This document shows, piece after piece, positions 6,914 to 16,592 of a stretch of DNA of 24,700 bases. Source of the DNA: a virus; IMG/VR virus record IMGVR_UViG_3300032820_000114, positions 1-24,700 of that record; one strand, given 5' to 3'. Below the pieces are notes generated by a model that made no database searches, was not told the DNA's origin, and saw only the letters and a program-made list of their open reading frames with translations. A program made the position numbers and the translations under genes. Positions within the stretch are counted from its first letter, which is position 1, and each line of letters starts with the position of its first letter.

Positions 6914-8831
6914 CAGTTAAAACCTCAGGTTGGTCTATATGTTTTGCTGGTGTTCTTTTAGGTGGTGGCGAGAACTTAGCTTTAGATACACTAGTTACTC
7001 CAGACCCATTTAAATCTGCTACATAATCTATACCATCTTGGGAAAACCACATCTGGCTTCCATCTGCCAAAACTTCTTTGATTAATGGAGAACCATAACC
7101 TTGTTGCATCAAAGACCCTACCCAAGTATTTGAAAGAGTCAATACATTCTTCTTGGCTCTAGCTTCAGCATAATCATCTATGTCTCTCATTTCATCAGTG
7201 CCATCATGTTTATCTGCATCTGTGGGAGTCTGACCAGCAGTACGTCCCTTAAACTTACGCTGAGAAGGTGGGATAGATTTGAGCATTGCTTGGATAGCAC
7301 CTTCTTCACCACCTCCCTCACCACCTTCTTCAGGTGGTGCGCCACCCATTTGCTCCTGCATTTGAGCTTGTTGTTCCATTTGTTCCATCTGTTGTTTCTG
7401 TTGGAGTATTCCCATTGCTTGTTGCTCACCGTTCATTTGAGCAGAAGGAACCATTTTACCAGAAATAAGGAACTGAGCTTCATCCAAAGGAACGTCTTGG
7501 TCTTTCAAAGTAATCTCAAACCCCAAAGCAGCGAACTGATTTATGATTTGTGCCTTCTGTTGAGCGAAACTTAATCGAGTATTCTCAGCCTTTTCTTCAG
7601 GTTGAGGAAGTACTATCTTCCAATCTGTTATCCCAAACATCTTTAGGAGTTGGGGGAAAACCTTTTCATGGAAGATACGTTGGTCACCTTCCACCACACG
7701 GCTCATAACTACTAGCTGTTGAGTCTGAGTAGACATACCGCCAAAGGCTTCAGGTGCGCCTTGCCAAGCAGGAGTAACACCCCACATAGCAGCAACACGT
7801 TCACGTATTTCTTCACGTACAGGAAGGTAATCCATTTCCTGCAACGTATGGAACAGTCTTACTAAGTCAACTCTACCACGTTGATTCCTGGCTGAAACCG
7901 CTACCATTGGTATATAGTTAGGGTCAAGCCTAGTTTGAGCAGCTATGTGTTCACGCTCTCTACGCAAACTTTCAGGGTCATCAGTTGTTACCATGACCAT
8001 ACTAGCTGGCATCTTCCGTTCAAAGAAGTACCTATAGATATTCTTATCCATACCAACCAGGGTTAATGCTTTCTCAAATACCGTAAGTAAAGGACTCCAT
8101 CCATACGTTTCAGATGGGGAGAACTTAGACACATGTATTACTTCATTATCAAACAGATACATATGACGGTTACGATGGTAGTATTTATACATAGCTGGCA
8201 GAGTATTCTGGTCGCAGTCAGGGTGTTCACATACACCAGGGGATTCTAGAACGTCCCTATGAATTGGACAGAGCCAATGGGAGTTCTTCGGCAGACCAGC
8301 CGTATCTAAGTCAAACTCAACCAGTGCAGGGTTCAGTCTACGAATTTCAGTAACTCTGGAATTAGTGTTACCGTTACCCATATCCTTATATTCTTTTGCG
8401 ATGTAAAGGAATCCATCATCTATAGAGTTTATATCATAATGGAACTGTCTCAGAACTTCTTCCAATGATTGGTCAAACGGATTACAATCATCTAAGAATA
8501 CTTCAAAACGTTCTCGTTGAGCATGGTCTGGGTCTGCTATAGTTGGTTCCCAAGTAATGCCTCTCCTAAAAACCTCTCCAGTAATATGTCCTAGAGGGCC
8601 ACGTATTTCCTCAACAGACATAGAAATGGTTTGCAAGTCCATAACCAACTGTTGACGGTAGGCCATCTGGTGACGTACCCAAGTATTAACAACGTGGTCA
8701 AGGCCGAAAGTAGGGGCTTGTCCTGTTTCACCAGTTCCTTTCATTAGCTCCAACATGTTAATCTGTTGATTCAGATTAGTCATTTGTTGAGCTAATTGGG
8801 GAACCTCTGGTAGATATTCTCCTAACTTCAT
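6900..8831 (-). CDS. Portal protein with internal zinc-binding-like cluster
   Basis: This 643-residue protein is the likely dodecameric portal through which DNA is packaged. It has portal-like features in order: an alpha/beta wing region, a stem-like helical part, and the sequence around 270-380 (FFERKMPASMVMV, YLPVREEIRERVAAMWGVTPAW, STQTQQLVVMSRVV) where known portals carry clip and stem helices. Size and position after terminase fit. Residues 188-206 hold C188, H191, C201, H203 and C206, a probable zinc site in the clip or wing. Residues 463-495 are Gln/Met-rich, followed by a Glu/Gly tract. Beyond 515 there is a C-terminal extension (IPPSQRKFKGRTAGQ to YVADLNGSGV) of 120 residues that I cannot assign. 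GAGG lies seven bases before the ATG. Confidence 0.8.
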   Translation of the reverse strand: MKLGEYLPEVPQLAQQMTNLNQQINMLELMKGTGETGQAPTFGLDHVVNTWVRHQMAYRQQLVMDLQTISMSVEEIRGPLGHITGEVFRRGITWEPTIADPDHAQRERFEVFLDDCNPFDQSLEEVLRQFHYDINSIDDGFLYIAKEYKDMGNGNTNSRVTEIRRLNPALVEFDLDTAGLPKNSHWLCPIHRDVLESPGVCEHPDCDQNTLPAMYKYYHRNRHMYLFDNEVIHVSKFSPSETYGWSPLLTVFEKALTLVGMDKNIYRYFFERKMPASMVMVTTDDPESLRREREHIAAQTRLDPNYIPMVAVSARNQRGRVDLVRLFHTLQEMDYLPVREEIRERVAAMWGVTPAWQGAPEAFGGMSTQTQQLVVMSRVVEGDQRIFHEKVFPQLLKMFGITDWKIVLPQPEEKAENTRLSFAQQKAQIINQFAALGFEITLKDQDVPLDEAQFLISGKMVPSAQMNGEQQAMGILQQKQQMEQMEQQAQMQEQMGGAPPEEGGEGGGEEGAIQAMLKSIPPSQRKFKGRTAGQTPTDADKHDGTDEMRDIDDYAEARAKKNVLTLSNTWVGSLMQQGYGSPLIKEVLADGSQMWFSQDGIDYVADLNGSGVTSVSKAKFSPPPKRTPAKHIDQPEVLTDESE

Positions 8832-8847
8832 TTAGTGCCTCTTACTT

Positions 8848-9264
8848 TTATTGGGATAGGCTATTCATATCATCCATTGCAGCAAGCCTAACTACATGTT
8901 CCATTGCGGTTTCCTTTAGTGATTTCTTAGAAAGCACAACATTTTGCTTCTCGCCATTTAATTCAACAGTTAATTCATTTATCTGTTGCCTCAATTCATT
9001 CACTAAAGTTTCATCTACTTCCGCAGCTTCAACTGAAAAATTAGCATTTTCCAACGTTCCACTTCTTGCAGCTTCTTTAACGAGTGCAATAAACGCTCCC
9101 TCAGTTAAAATAGTGATGGCAGGATTATCATCGTCAACATCATCGTCAGGCTGCATATTCTTTAGGGTTTCATGCCATGTATCAAGTACACGCCATGTAC
9201 CTTTATCATCTTGATTCGCTACGTATTGTTGCTCTCTTCCTTGCAATAAACTACCAATAGGCAT
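8848..9264 (-). CDS. Hypothetical coiled-coil protein upstream of portal
   Basis: I do not recognise this 138-residue acidic protein. Residues 40-48 form a short Asp run (PDDDVDDDNP), and residues about 78-125 look like a coiled coil (LVNELRQQINELTVELNGEK). The start has AGAGGAGAAACATT, a strong site. It is the first gene behind a candidate promoter and lies 16 bases before the portal gene. Position and helical character suggest a small assembly or head protein, but no family is evident. Confidence 0.6.
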   Translation of the reverse strand: MPIGSLLQGREQQYVANQDDKGTWRVLDTWHETLKNMQPDDDVDDDNPAITILTEGAFIALVKEAARSGTLENANFSVEAAEVDETLVNELRQQINELTVELNGEKQNVVLSKKSLKETAMEHVVRLAAMDDMNSLSQ

Positions 9265-13315: not shown

Positions 13316-13801
13316 TTAGGCTCCGTATATACTGTTGGGGTCTAAGCCACCAAAGCCAGCATCTGATACATGTTGGGAATCTATGTTACCGCCCCAAGGG
13401 GAGCCATCAGGCTGTAAGAACTTACTGAAGTCCACATGCCCACTTACGCCAGTATTACACGTAAAGCAAGCAGGAACCTTATACTTCTGGCTACCAGATA
13501 CTATCGTCTTAAACTTAATAGCAATCTCATCTGGTCTTCCACATAACCCCTTGATACCAGGGTCATCTTTAAAAGAATTATAAGTTCTGTTCTTTAGAAT
13601 CGTTTTAAGTGTGCGCTCTGCTCCAATCTGTTTATTCCATTTACAACCGTAGTATTCACACCAAACTAATTTAGAGTACTCTGCTTTCAGTTCCTCTTCG
13701 GTCATGCCCTCAGGAAGTTTATCTTCTTCCGTAGTAGTCTTAGGTATTGGCTCTATGAAATCAACCCTAAGCTTATCCTGATTTATTCTCTGTAGTCCCA
13801 T
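13316..13801 (-). CDS. Hypothetical protein with Cys pairs, possible zinc binder
   Basis: I do not recognise this 161-residue protein. Residues 20-45 are acidic (TTTEEDKLPEGMTEEELKAE). Five Cys follow: C48 and C53 (VWCEYYGCKWN), C87 (GLCGRPDE), and C112 with C115 (PACFTCNTG). The spacing would suit one zinc site plus one spare. The last 40 residues are Gly-, Ser- and Asp-rich and probably flexible. AAGGAG precedes the ATG by six bases. The gene overlaps the RuvC-like gene by 29 bases and ends one base before terS, so it belongs to the terminase/resolvase group and might act in DNA maturation; that is inference. Confidence 0.6.
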   Translation of the reverse strand: MGLQRINQDKLRVDFIEPIPKTTTEEDKLPEGMTEEELKAEYSKLVWCEYYGCKWNKQIGAERTLKTILKNRTYNSFKDDPGIKGLCGRPDEIAIKFKTIVSGSQKYKVPACFTCNTGVSGHVDFSKFLQPDGSPWGGNIDSQHVSDAGFGGLDPNSIYGA

Positions 13802-14249
13802 CTTTTCTCCTTTTATACCATAATGCTATACAAGCTGCGTCTGCAAAATCTTGTTCTTTGAATACCTCTCCCCATTTCTCAATGGCGAAGGTTTTAATGT
13901 CTGGTTTCTTTACATTCCCCTTACCTATAACCGCCTTCTTCCATGACCTATTATCCACTAAGGTATGAGGAATAGAATGTTCTTGCAGAACTACTCTAAC
14001 CCCACCAACCACATAAGCAATAGCTAGAGTAGTACGAGGATTCTGAATATAAATAGCTGCCTCTACAGCAGCCCCAGATATTATATCTATTTTACTCAAG
14101 TCTTCCGAAAAATTAGCGAAAATTTGCGAAAATCTTGTATCAAAATCTGAACCTTTTCCTTCAGACTTGAACTGTAAAACTATGTTTTCCTGTTCATCAA
14201 TGACGATTCCATGTACTGCTTTGGATGAACAATCTAAACCTAAATACAT
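13773..14249 (-). CDS. RuvC-like Holliday junction resolvase
   Basis: This 158-residue protein has an RNase H-like fold signature of RuvC resolvases. D6 is in the first strand (MYLGLDCSS), E63 is in AVEAAIYIQNPRT, and an acidic pair D134/D137 is in QDFADAACIALWY. Length and order match RuvC, and the stretch SWKKAVIGKGNVKKPDI corresponds to the RuvC region that binds the junction. It would cut branched replicated DNA before packaging; phages often keep such an enzyme next to terminase, as here. The start is set by D6 lying close to the N-terminus and an in-frame TAG four codons upstream. No Shine-Dalgarno sequence precedes it, and the bases TATA-ATG form a -10-like hexamer overlapping the start codon. 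Confidence 0.8.
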   Translation of the reverse strand: MYLGLDCSSKAVHGIVIDEQENIVLQFKSEGKGSDFDTRFSQIFANFSEDLSKIDIISGAAVEAAIYIQNPRTTLAIAYVVGGVRVVLQEHSIPHTLVDNRSWKKAVIGKGNVKKPDIKTFAIEKWGEVFKEQDFADAACIALWYKRRKDGTTENKSG

Positions 14250-14273
14250 TATAACACACTATTGGACATTTGT

Positions 14274-14714
14274 CTAGCGTGAAGTTTTCAATGTTCTATA
14301 TTCTTGAACACTGAAATATGCAGTTGTAATACTATTCAACTTACCCAACATGCTTTCATATAAGGCTTGGGCTTCAATATATGATTGATATGTATCTTTG
14401 AGCAAACGGTTGGTGGATAAGGCTTCACCTTCCCGTACTTTTTCAGGCGGGGGTTTCAAACCCTGCTTCTCATATTCCTTAACTAGAGTATAACCTGTAG
14501 TGGCTAAACCCGCTTCATAAGATAACTTAGCAGAAGTAGCTTCCGATTTCAACTGCCCTACCATAGCTTCTAATTGAATTTTCCATACACTGTACTCCGC
14601 TACTTTATCATTTAATTCTTCCACATTCATGCTACGCAATTCAGCATATGAATGGGTAGCCATATTTAAGTTTTGAACTTGAGCCTTTATTCTTTCATTA
14701 AGCTGCGCTAACAT
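14274..14714 (-). CDS. Hypothetical helical protein
   Basis: I do not recognise this 146-residue protein. It is almost entirely helical in character: residues 1-75 have coiled-coil periodicity (NVEELNDKVAEYSVWKIQLE). A break with PPPEKVREGE lies near residues 90-100, and another helix follows (YQSYIEAQALYESML). The ATG at 14714 is chosen over one four codons earlier because GAGGAG lies five bases before it. It overlaps the TrpF-like gene by 17 bases and so is probably coupled to it. It may be a partner or scaffold for a neighbour, but no function can be read. Confidence 0.6.
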   Translation of the reverse strand: MLAQLNERIKAQVQNLNMATHSYAELRSMNVEELNDKVAEYSVWKIQLEAMVGQLKSEATSAKLSYEAGLATTGYTLVKEYEKQGLKPPPEKVREGEALSTNRLLKDTYQSYIEAQALYESMLGKLNSITTAYFSVQEYRTLKTSR

Positions 14715-15408
14715 AAGTCTCCTCATGGATAAATGGTGCTACGATTTCAGCGCATTGCATCACCTTGTCTATATCAAAATCATCTTGTGAGTTTCTAAGT
14801 TTAGTTTCCATGTCTACCCAAATTACAGTATCTTCAGGAAGGAAGTAATCTAGGTAATCCAGTTCTGCTTTAAGGTTATCTGGGCCTAGCCCACCAGCAT
14901 ACCCACATTTCCTACCTTCGATAGCTGAAGGCCATGCAAAAGGAGTCCTGCCAGCACCACTAGAAGTATCAAATAACAAGGAAGTTTGGGGATGGATTTC
15001 ATGTATCCAATCATTCTCACCATCCATCTGTACTATAACTTCTTGTCTCAATTTATCAATTAGATTTCTAAAATTTGCTTTGTCAAGAATCATGTCTACT
15101 GGTAAGCCATGAAAGTTTAATTGAATTCGTTTAAATTTATTGAATAGGTCAACCCCAACAAGTCCAGCGAAAGTGGTGATATTTCCTCGTACAGCATTAG
15201 TTACAAACGCCCCACATAGGTGAGCAGATAAAGTAAGGGAAGAATCTGCCAAGGGGGTTATCCATTGTCTAGATGGAAATCTATGGCTTCCAGTAGAAGG
15301 GAATAATATACCCCATTCTACAAAAGGAAAGTAAGTGGAAACTTCTTCTAAATGCGCTATGCTTGTGGTATCGTCTGCACCTGTAAAAGTAATATTAGAG
15401 ACTTGCAT
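14698..15408 (-). CDS. TrpF-like (phosphoribosylanthranilate isomerase-like) TIM-barrel protein, catalytic Cys absent
   Basis: This 236-residue protein follows the layout of PRAI/TrpF barrels. An N-terminal strand (VSNITFTGADD) replaces the K-I-C-G start, then FVEWGILFPST, then RIQLNFHG (94-101) like the family's Q-L-H-G. LLFDTSSGAGR (144-154) carries the general-acid Asp, here D147, with a Gly-rich phosphate loop. YAGGLGPDNL (170-179) is the second phosphate-binding loop. WVDMETKLRNSQDDFDIDKV (197-216) matches the family's D-V-S-S-G-V-E region. The general-base Cys of TrpF is absent; Thr or Phe takes its place, and the first Cys is C65. It probably binds a phosphoribosyl-type substrate but does something other than tryptophan synthesis, for which no other gene is present. 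AAAGGAG precedes the ATG. Role unknown; base modification or nucleotide metabolism are possibilities. Confidence 0.75.
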   Translation of the reverse strand: MQVSNITFTGADDTTSIAHLEEVSTYFPFVEWGILFPSTGSHRFPSRQWITPLADSSLTLSAHLCGAFVTNAVRGNITTFAGLVGVDLFNKFKRIQLNFHGLPVDMILDKANFRNLIDKLRQEVIVQMDGENDWIHEIHPQTSLLFDTSSGAGRTPFAWPSAIEGRKCGYAGGLGPDNLKAELDYLDYFLPEDTVIWVDMETKLRNSQDDFDIDKVMQCAEIVAPFIHEETYVSAA

Positions 15409-15580
15409 TATTTGCTCCTTTCTGAACTTTCTTATCTGAGAATTCTTTAGCTTTTTCCTTAAAGCCCCATTTTGTCCTAAGCCCAGGTCTTCTCTTTAAT
15501 TCGTTTTTCACAAATTCTAATTCGTCTGGTTCTAACTCACCCGCCCACCCAGGAATTAAAATACGTTTATCAATATCCAT
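15395..15580 (-). CDS. Small hypothetical protein
   Basis: This 61-residue protein begins MDIDKRILIPGWAGELEPDE and is basic towards its end (KWGFKEKAKEFSDKKVQKG). I do not recognise it. The ATG at 15580 is preferred to a GTG at 15589 because GAGG lies eight bases before the ATG but directly abuts the GTG. It overlaps the TrpF-like gene by 14 bases, so the two are likely translated together. Confidence 0.5.
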   Translation of the reverse strand: MDIDKRILIPGWAGELEPDELEFVKNELKRRPGLRTKWGFKEKAKEFSDKKVQKGANNASL

Positions 15581-15615
15581 ACCACTCACCTCAAAGGTTC
15601 ATGGTATTATTGTAC

Positions 15616-16314
15616 CTAAATCGTTATATTTTTACATGAACACCATCTATCGCCCCCGCATTGTGGTGGGCAAACGTCCATTTGCATAATTGCTTTGCAA
15701 CGATTAAAGATAGCATCTATGTGCTTCTGCTCATATTTCACAAGGAACGCTTTCAAATCTTGGTTATCCTTGTTTTCATATAATACTGTTCCATATTCTA
15801 CGGGCCATAAAGCTAAGTATAGCTGTAATTGAACAAGGTGTTCGGGTTTAGGGGAAGAGGTCAACTTATTAAAGCCTGCATTATTAATAGATTTTAGTTC
15901 TACGGGCATTGGCCCATATTCCCCGTGGTCGATAATAAAGTCTATGCGCCCTGAAATGGGGGGGTAATCAAAAGTTACAGGTACTTCCCGTTCCAATTCC
16001 AACCCCATATCATTAAAGTATTTGGATACACGATTTTCCAATGCGGAGCCACACCCAAAGATACGAGCTAATTTAGGTACTATCGTATATGCTTCTAACA
16101 AACCATTATATCCTAAATACAATAATCTGTCACACGGTTGTCCTACTTGAGAGGGATGGAATACTCCAGCCCTTGGGGGATTATTATGCCCCTCTAAATG
16201 AGCGTCTAAAGCCTTCAGAAGCCATTTGTCTTGGTTGGTTACTGGTGTTGGGGGTTTCCGTTTGGCTCTAGGTTTGTTGTTTCCTCTTCCTGAAATTTGT
16301 CGAATTCCTGCCAT
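15616..16314 (-). CDS. Cas4/RecB-like PD-(D/E)XK nuclease with Fe-S-type cysteines
   Basis: This 232-residue protein matches the Cas4/RecB nuclease pattern. C61 is in a QPCDRLLYLG motif. Then come ALENRV (91-96), GRID (122-125) with catalytic D125, PVELKS (137-142) with E139 and K141, and HLVQLQLYLALW (159-170), the QxxxY-type motif IV. The C-terminus has C215, C219, C225 and C227. One N-terminal Cys plus a C-terminal Cys group is the arrangement that binds a 4Fe-4S cluster in Cas4 and AddB-like nucleases. It would be a DNA exonuclease, here next to a RecA-like recombinase, so end resection in recombination is likely rather than CRISPR adaptation (no cas genes or array are present). GAGG precedes the ATG by five bases, inside the DUF559 gene, giving a 76-base overlap. 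Confidence 0.82.
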   Translation of the reverse strand: MAGIRQISGRGNNKPRAKRKPPTPVTNQDKWLLKALDAHLEGHNNPPRAGVFHPSQVGQPCDRLLYLGYNGLLEAYTIVPKLARIFGCGSALENRVSKYFNDMGLELEREVPVTFDYPPISGRIDFIIDHGEYGPMPVELKSINNAGFNKLTSSPKPEHLVQLQLYLALWPVEYGTVLYENKDNQDLKAFLVKYEQKHIDAIFNRCKAIMQMDVCPPQCGGDRWCSCKNITI

Positions 16315-16592
16315 ATGTCCTCGATTATACCCTCTAGGGTTTGAGATTTAATGTGTACTACACGGTCTACTAAATAAGTCTCCATTATGTTCATATCTCG
16401 TTTTCTGTCTCTTTTACTATAATGACCATAATGACCGTCAGCTTCGATAACTATATTCAATTCAGGTAGAAAGAAATCCACTATGTAAGGTTTAAACCAA
16501 TCACATTGTTCTATATAAGAATATCCATATGAATCTAATGCAGACCTTACATACCGTTCCTGTTGAGTATCGTCTTTATAGGGCTGTTGCAT
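16239..16592 (-). CDS. DUF559/Vsr-like PD-(D/E)XK endonuclease
   Basis: This 117-residue protein fits the small very-short-patch-repair-like nuclease family. An N-terminal helix with Gln/Glu is followed by YIVDFFLPELNIVIEADGHY (36-55), where D39, E50 and D52 are the acidic residues. RDRKRDMNIM (61-70) supplies basic residues, and DRVVHIKSQTLEG (76-88) is the typical late strand. Relatives nick or cut DNA, some at mismatches; the target here is unknown. The last 25 residues, which overlap the next gene's start, are polar and probably not part of the fold. The gene overlaps the recombinase by 17 bases. Confidence 0.75.
   Translation of the reverse strand: MQQPYKDDTQQERYVRSALDSYGYSYIEQCDWFKPYIVDFFLPELNIVIEADGHYGHYSKRDRKRDMNIMETYLVDRVVHIKSQTLEGIIEDIWQEFDKFQEEETTNLEPNGNPQHQ

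Follow-up and report, generated by a model that had tools for sequence, protein, structure and literature searches.

In TrpF (PF00697), an Asp opens the ribose ring of N-(5-phosphoribosyl)anthranilate and a Cys drives the Amadori proton transfer, and the related phosphoribosyl barrels HisA and PriA likewise perform Amadori chemistry, with HisA carrying a catalytic Asp in strand 1. A second described system that bears on the present locus is uracil catabolism by the URC pathway. According to passages of PMC7530994, URC4 turns ribosylurea into urea, and passages of PMC3869809 describe URC1 and URC4 as conserved in bacteria and fungi.

The window, a stretch of 24,700 nucleotides of viral DNA (positions 1 to 24,700 of the IMG/VR record IMGVR_UViG_3300032820_000114), encodes a protein that is related to the first of these systems by its predicted structure, and to the second by the genomic context of its bacterial relatives. 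The ORF listing of the window gives a 236-aa ORF with an ATG start that runs from 15408 down to 14698 on the minus strand, and the plus strand across 14698-15408 contains many stops. Thus, the ORF that had been pointed out in an earlier note on this DNA is real, and all residues named there were found, that is, D147, SSGAGR (149-154), AGGLGPDN (171-178), HLCG with C65, and WVDMETKLR (197-205). The features of the gene are as follows:

14698..15408, minus strand: TrpF-like barrel gene, 236 aa (ORF call; AlphaFold2 pLDDT 93)
15382..15384, minus strand: Thr9, aligned with the catalytic Cys of TrpF at the end of strand 1; nearly all relatives have Thr or Ser here (conservation and alignment)
15316..15318, minus strand: Glu31, invariant, in strand 2, without a TrpF counterpart (conservation and alignment)
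15280..15282, minus strand: Arg43, which matches a conserved active-site Arg of TrpF (conservation and alignment)
15214..15222, minus strand: His63-Leu-Cys65 of the HLCG motif in strand 3, with Cys65 replaced by Asn in one alphaproteobacterial clade (conservation)
15115..15129, minus strand: R94-x-Q96-x-N98 in strand 4, the Gln common to TrpF and the Asn in place of the TrpF His (conservation and alignment)
14950..14970, minus strand: D147, the general-acid Asp of TrpF, with the S-x-G-x-G loop (conservation and alignment)
14875..14904, minus strand: GYAGGLGPDN, strand 7 and the phosphate loop common to TrpF (conservation and alignment)
14794..14814, minus strand: D199-M-E201-T-K-L-R205, an altered strand-8 loop (DVSSGVE in TrpF) (conservation and alignment)

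The gene shares 14 nt with the 64-aa ORF upstream and 29 nt with the 150-aa ORF downstream, and is therefore probably cotranscribed with both. The order of a nuclease-like ORF, the TrpF-like gene and a RuvC-like ORF (13773-16592, minus strand) is found again in some related phage contigs (L018-L020). Searched as a single sequence, the window protein appears only weakly similar to TrpF: the Pfam profile PRAI for TrpF yielded an E value of 0.2 and 11.8 bits, which is below the curated cut-off of 22.7 bits, the PDB yielded an E value of 0.5, and PHROGs and NCBIfam gave no match above noise.

The structure was predicted by AlphaFold2 with 92 aligned sequences and resulted in an eight-stranded barrel (pLDDT 93, pTM 0.90). 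Foldseek ranked TrpF first among the solved folds (E 2.5e-6), as did VIA-align (Z 16.3, rmsd 3.0, 189 aligned), in line with the TrpF-like barrel suggested before, and alignment of the family with canonical TrpF by hhalign gave an E value of 7e-6; a search of BFVD revealed no meaningful match. The next structural match is PdxJ (Z 14.3), although with 8-12% identity, and a single member of 92 matches the NCBIfam profile for PdxJ (E 2.2e-4). HisA and PriA are also among the structural matches, at a lower Z of about 13; Thr9 occupies the place of the strand-1 Asp of HisA. The protein is thus confidently predicted to be a (beta/alpha)8 barrel that is nearest to TrpF.

Relatives of the window protein were detected by tblastn in Microcystis phage Mwe-JY13, where the gene is XAI95142, and in uncultured huge phages with genomes of 635 and 735 kb, which places genomes of 635-735 kb among the carriers. 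A profile built from four members matched 59 viral contigs and 77 bacterial loci, 17 plasmid records match the family profile as well, and after further scans the set comprised about 240 non-identical ORFs. The relatives show ~25-43% identity, and their occurrence in phages, plasmids and bacteria puts the observation beyond chance. PHROGs matched none of 92 members, whereas Pfam PRAI gave weak matches in 67 of the 92 at E values up to 1 (best 6.5e-8), with some relatives narrowly passing its cut-off; NCBIfam yielded weak scattered matches and PADLOC single weak ones. Judged by sequence, these proteins form a dedicated, widespread and conserved family without a name, absent from PHROGs and NCBIfam. 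It contains a C-type clade of 94 sequences, in which C65 is fixed by definition, and a clade of 36 alphaproteobacterial sequences with Asn at this position; the window protein falls into the phage-dominated part of the tree. Two plasmid members (L144:6986-8299 and L145:6854-8593) have long C-terminal extensions; the weak resemblance of the former to PRA-PH/MazG pyrophosphohydrolases was the one match obtained for the two. Two or three tandem copies of the Asn65 variant lie downstream of a gene that by eye is rlmN-like in small alphaproteobacterial genomes (L107, L118, L122 and L124, around 7000-9200), and other Asn65 members adjoin a gene that by eye is mutY-like.

Across 134 members, E31, Q96, D147, G169, G172 and G173 do not vary, T7, R43 and G151 are nearly invariant, and no more than a few percent of the members deviate at H63, R94, N98, S149, G153, Y170 or D199. 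E201 is replaced in 11 of the 134; within the 94 sequences of the C-type clade, H63 and E201 do not vary. Moreover, the phage copies of one group of related contigs gave dN/dS values of 0.06-0.24. Because polar residues are invariant and selection is purifying, the family is, as far as sequences tell, a maintained enzyme, which bears out the earlier view of a dedicated family rather than a decayed enzyme.

Correspondence with TrpF was determined by three MAFFT alignment modes, all of which agree, the register of T9 being known from the alignment only. T9-G10 aligns with the Cys-Gly of TrpF, and D147 with the acid Asp (10/10). Common to both are R43 (the active-site Arg), Q96 in strand 4, D147, G151, G153, W159, the GG(L) loop with its Asn (G172-G173 and N178) and D199 in strand 8. 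In contrast, Thr9 replaces Cys, N98 the strand-4 His, E201 a Ser and R205 a Glu, and Glu31, His63, Cys65 and Arg94 are features that TrpF lacks. The missing Cys in strand 1 noted before is an exchange for Thr or Ser that extends to nearly all relatives. D147 and the GGLxPDN loop are retained, as had been noted; of the second phosphate loop of TrpF, SSGVE in strand 8, only half is kept, reading ETKLR in the window and E-T/S-G-V-R in many relatives, or E-T/S-x-x-R in general. The family, its fold prediction and its residue pattern are established; the predicted fold and the aligned acid are those of TrpF, but the base is not.

A scan of adjacent genes revealed that alphaproteobacterial members have UPRTase and a GTP cyclohydrolase of the URC1 type (PF12471) as neighbours. 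Two loci (L070 and L395) read URC1, TrpF-like gene, UPRT, and another (L401) reads URC1, DUF1688, UPRT; hence, in one alphaproteobacterial branch the TrpF-like gene fills the usual slot of DUF1688/URC4 between URC1 and UPRT. Neither the L395 member, which sits in this slot, nor the window protein matches PF07958 in Pfam. DUF1688 (PF07958) is a different protein family of about 420 aa, and the TrpF-like protein is its analogue, not its homologue. PF12471 matched none of 14 control genomes, and neither did DUF1688; since several of the 14 are known to possess RibA, PF12471 marks URC1 and not RibA.

The distribution of the genes was followed in two unselected genome samples. Among 142 genomes from the order of the L070 genome, with weak partial matches in G141-G143 set aside, URC1 is present in 17, 15 of which have the TrpF-like gene without DUF1688 and two DUF1688 without the TrpF-like gene; three further genomes (G018, G086 and G159) contain the TrpF-like gene without URC1, possibly owing to assembly gaps. 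Among 385 genomes sampled evenly from the class, URC1 occurs in 37; DUF1688 accompanies it in 35, none of which (0/35) has the TrpF-like gene, and the other two both have it, as do 4 of the 348 genomes without URC1. In both samples together, the TrpF-like gene was found in 16/16 URC1 genomes without DUF1688 and in 0/37 with it (pooled Fisher p 7e-14, uncorrected and with genomes counted as independent of species phylogeny). This mutual exclusion applies to the unselected samples: in G003, G004, G005 and G009, which were chosen for a phage-type member, all three genes can co-occur, as expected if the chosen copy belongs to a phage or prophage. In G084 and G093 (contigs of about 2.46 Mb each) URC1 lies more than 400 kb from the TrpF-like gene, and the link is therefore not mere proximity.

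Moreover, one of the two class genomes without DUF1688 (G480) encodes a natural URC1::TrpF-like fusion in a single 686-aa ORF. Beside the URC1::TrpF-like fusion, a 761-aa protein (L394:4035-6317, minus strand) contains a LOG/lysine-decarboxylase-like domain (E 3.6e-5, below the cut-off) and is possibly another phosphoribohydrolase. The operon slot, the fusion and the complementarity with DUF1688 are established, and they point to nucleotide catabolism.

Our proposal is that the compound cleaved by the family is N-(5-phosphoribosyl)urea or something closely analogous. N-(5-phosphoribosyl)urea resembles the TrpF substrate N-(5-phosphoribosyl)anthranilate, and the operon slot is that of URC4. With the Asp kept and the Cys lost, ring opening followed by hydrolysis is predicted, and we infer the following course. 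The phosphate would be held by the strand-7 loop and the remnant of the strand-8 loop, and D147 would protonate the ribose ring oxygen like the Asp of TrpF, so that the sugar opens to a Schiff base. With Thr or Ser in place of Cys there would be no strong base for the C2' proton, and in place of an Amadori rearrangement, hydrolysis of the intermediate, perhaps with the help of H63 or E201, would yield urea and ribose 5-phosphate. The enzyme of one alphaproteobacterial branch would thereby stand in for URC4 (DUF1688) in uracil catabolism and act after UPRT and URC1. That the family consists of enzymes that descend from TrpF or form its sister group and have lost the Cys general base, with N-glycosidic cleavage of the N-(5-phosphoribosyl)urea type as their best-supported chemistry, we hold to be about evenly balanced. 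The proposal is a first functional hypothesis for an unannotated family that occurs in phages, in plasmids and in bacteria. For the obscure URC4 step, it suggests that there is another enzyme, unrelated to the first, and it exemplifies how an isomerase could become a hydrolase when a single catalytic residue is lost.

Most members, that is, those of phages, plasmids and the Asn65 clade, show no link to URC genes, the URC-linked clade being one branch different from that of the window protein. URC1 and DUF1688 were sought alongside the phage copies and not found; the phage substrate, which is less certain, must therefore have another source. In the course of infection, phage copies would probably carry out this cleavage, or one closely akin to it, on a fragment of a nucleotide. 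Of 27 signature residues, the window protein has at least 24 in common with the single-domain members linked to URC, and neither URC1 nor DUF1688 is present in phages; we are therefore surer of the chemistry than of the reason for which the phage carries the gene. In the literature available, no phage enzyme was found that is TrpF-like or acts on phosphoribosylurea. A further-reaching reading is that a hydrolase that cleaves N-(5-phosphoribosyl)urea is widespread in phages, arose from a TrpF-type isomerase, replaced URC4 in bacteria and serves phages without URC1 to remove pyrimidine nucleotides that are broken, or to salvage them; this seems possible, though short of an even chance, and it renders a metabolic role in infection directly testable.

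Somewhat unlikely, but the alternative that survives best, is that the phage enzymes retain the fold and the phosphoribosyl pocket and act by cleavage or rearrangement on some other N-phosphoribosyl compound, for instance a damaged or defence-made nucleotide, with ribosylurea used in the alphaproteobacterial branch only. This would agree with the absence of URC1/URC4 from phages, with the nesting of the URC branch inside a phage-dominated tree, with the assorted nucleotide and RNA enzymes among the neighbours, and with the extension of one plasmid member that weakly resembles the PRA-PH/MazG group; the near-identity of the signature residues between the URC branch and the window protein argues against it.

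It is also conceivable, though improbable, that in URC bacteria the protein works at a step other than that of URC4, such as the conversion of an earlier product of URC1, or that the partnered URC1 variants make a different intermediate. The fused URC1 and the URC1 adjoining the TrpF-like gene in L073 are indeed strongly diverged. However, the URC1 that accompanies the TrpF-like gene within the order is an ordinary one and a close relative of the URC1 partnered with DUF1688, and the TrpF-like gene occupies the very slot of DUF1688. In the URC1 tree, the partner changed at least twice, as forced by the starred branches, and in the best tree the two DUF1688 genomes of the order fall among those partnered with the TrpF-like gene; the rows L073 and L394 are very long and their placement is unsure. 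In L073 (2439-5520), a second GTP cyclohydrolase II gene lies directly upstream of the TrpF-like gene, and the diverged URC1 downstream.

The earlier note had suggested a role in nucleotide or DNA base modification, here considered as that of an Amadori-type isomerase in such a pathway. The retained acid Asp, Arg and phosphate loop and the position of the window gene among DNA enzymes are compatible with this idea, but the Amadori base is replaced by Thr or Ser throughout the family. Furthermore, clustering of the neighbours at 235 loci, with clusters that lacked a scan named by eye, revealed no near-universal partner in phages and no recurrent base-modification partner. The neighbours that recur, in 9-15 of the 235 loci, are ASCH-like, DUF5131-type and DUF1643 proteins as well as C5 and other DNA methyltransferases, all only loosely near; the methyltransferases are common accessory neighbours and not specifically adjacent. 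The tabulation thus speaks against the modification role, which we regard as quite doubtful. A recurring unannotated neighbour is found near three distant members (L092:8675-9433, which contains MKIYPVIHYLNRDLALQQVDLARICGADGVF, as well as L112 and L149).

Finally, 10 of 16 carrier genomes tested contain a canonical TrpF besides the family member, the six without one comprising five genomes of 0.8-1.6 Mb and one of 2.7 Mb; ten carriers in or near the URC-linked order have a separate TrpF with E values below 1e-36. Despite the weak PRAI similarity, it is highly implausible that the protein is a true TrpF that has diverged, or a pseudoenzyme in decay, given these separate enzymes, the replacement of both the catalytic Cys and the strand-4 His, and the purifying selection with invariant polar residues. 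Since many carriers have a true TrpF of their own, the family protein is not TrpF, and its reaction is probably one other than that of TrpF, as had been surmised from the window protein.
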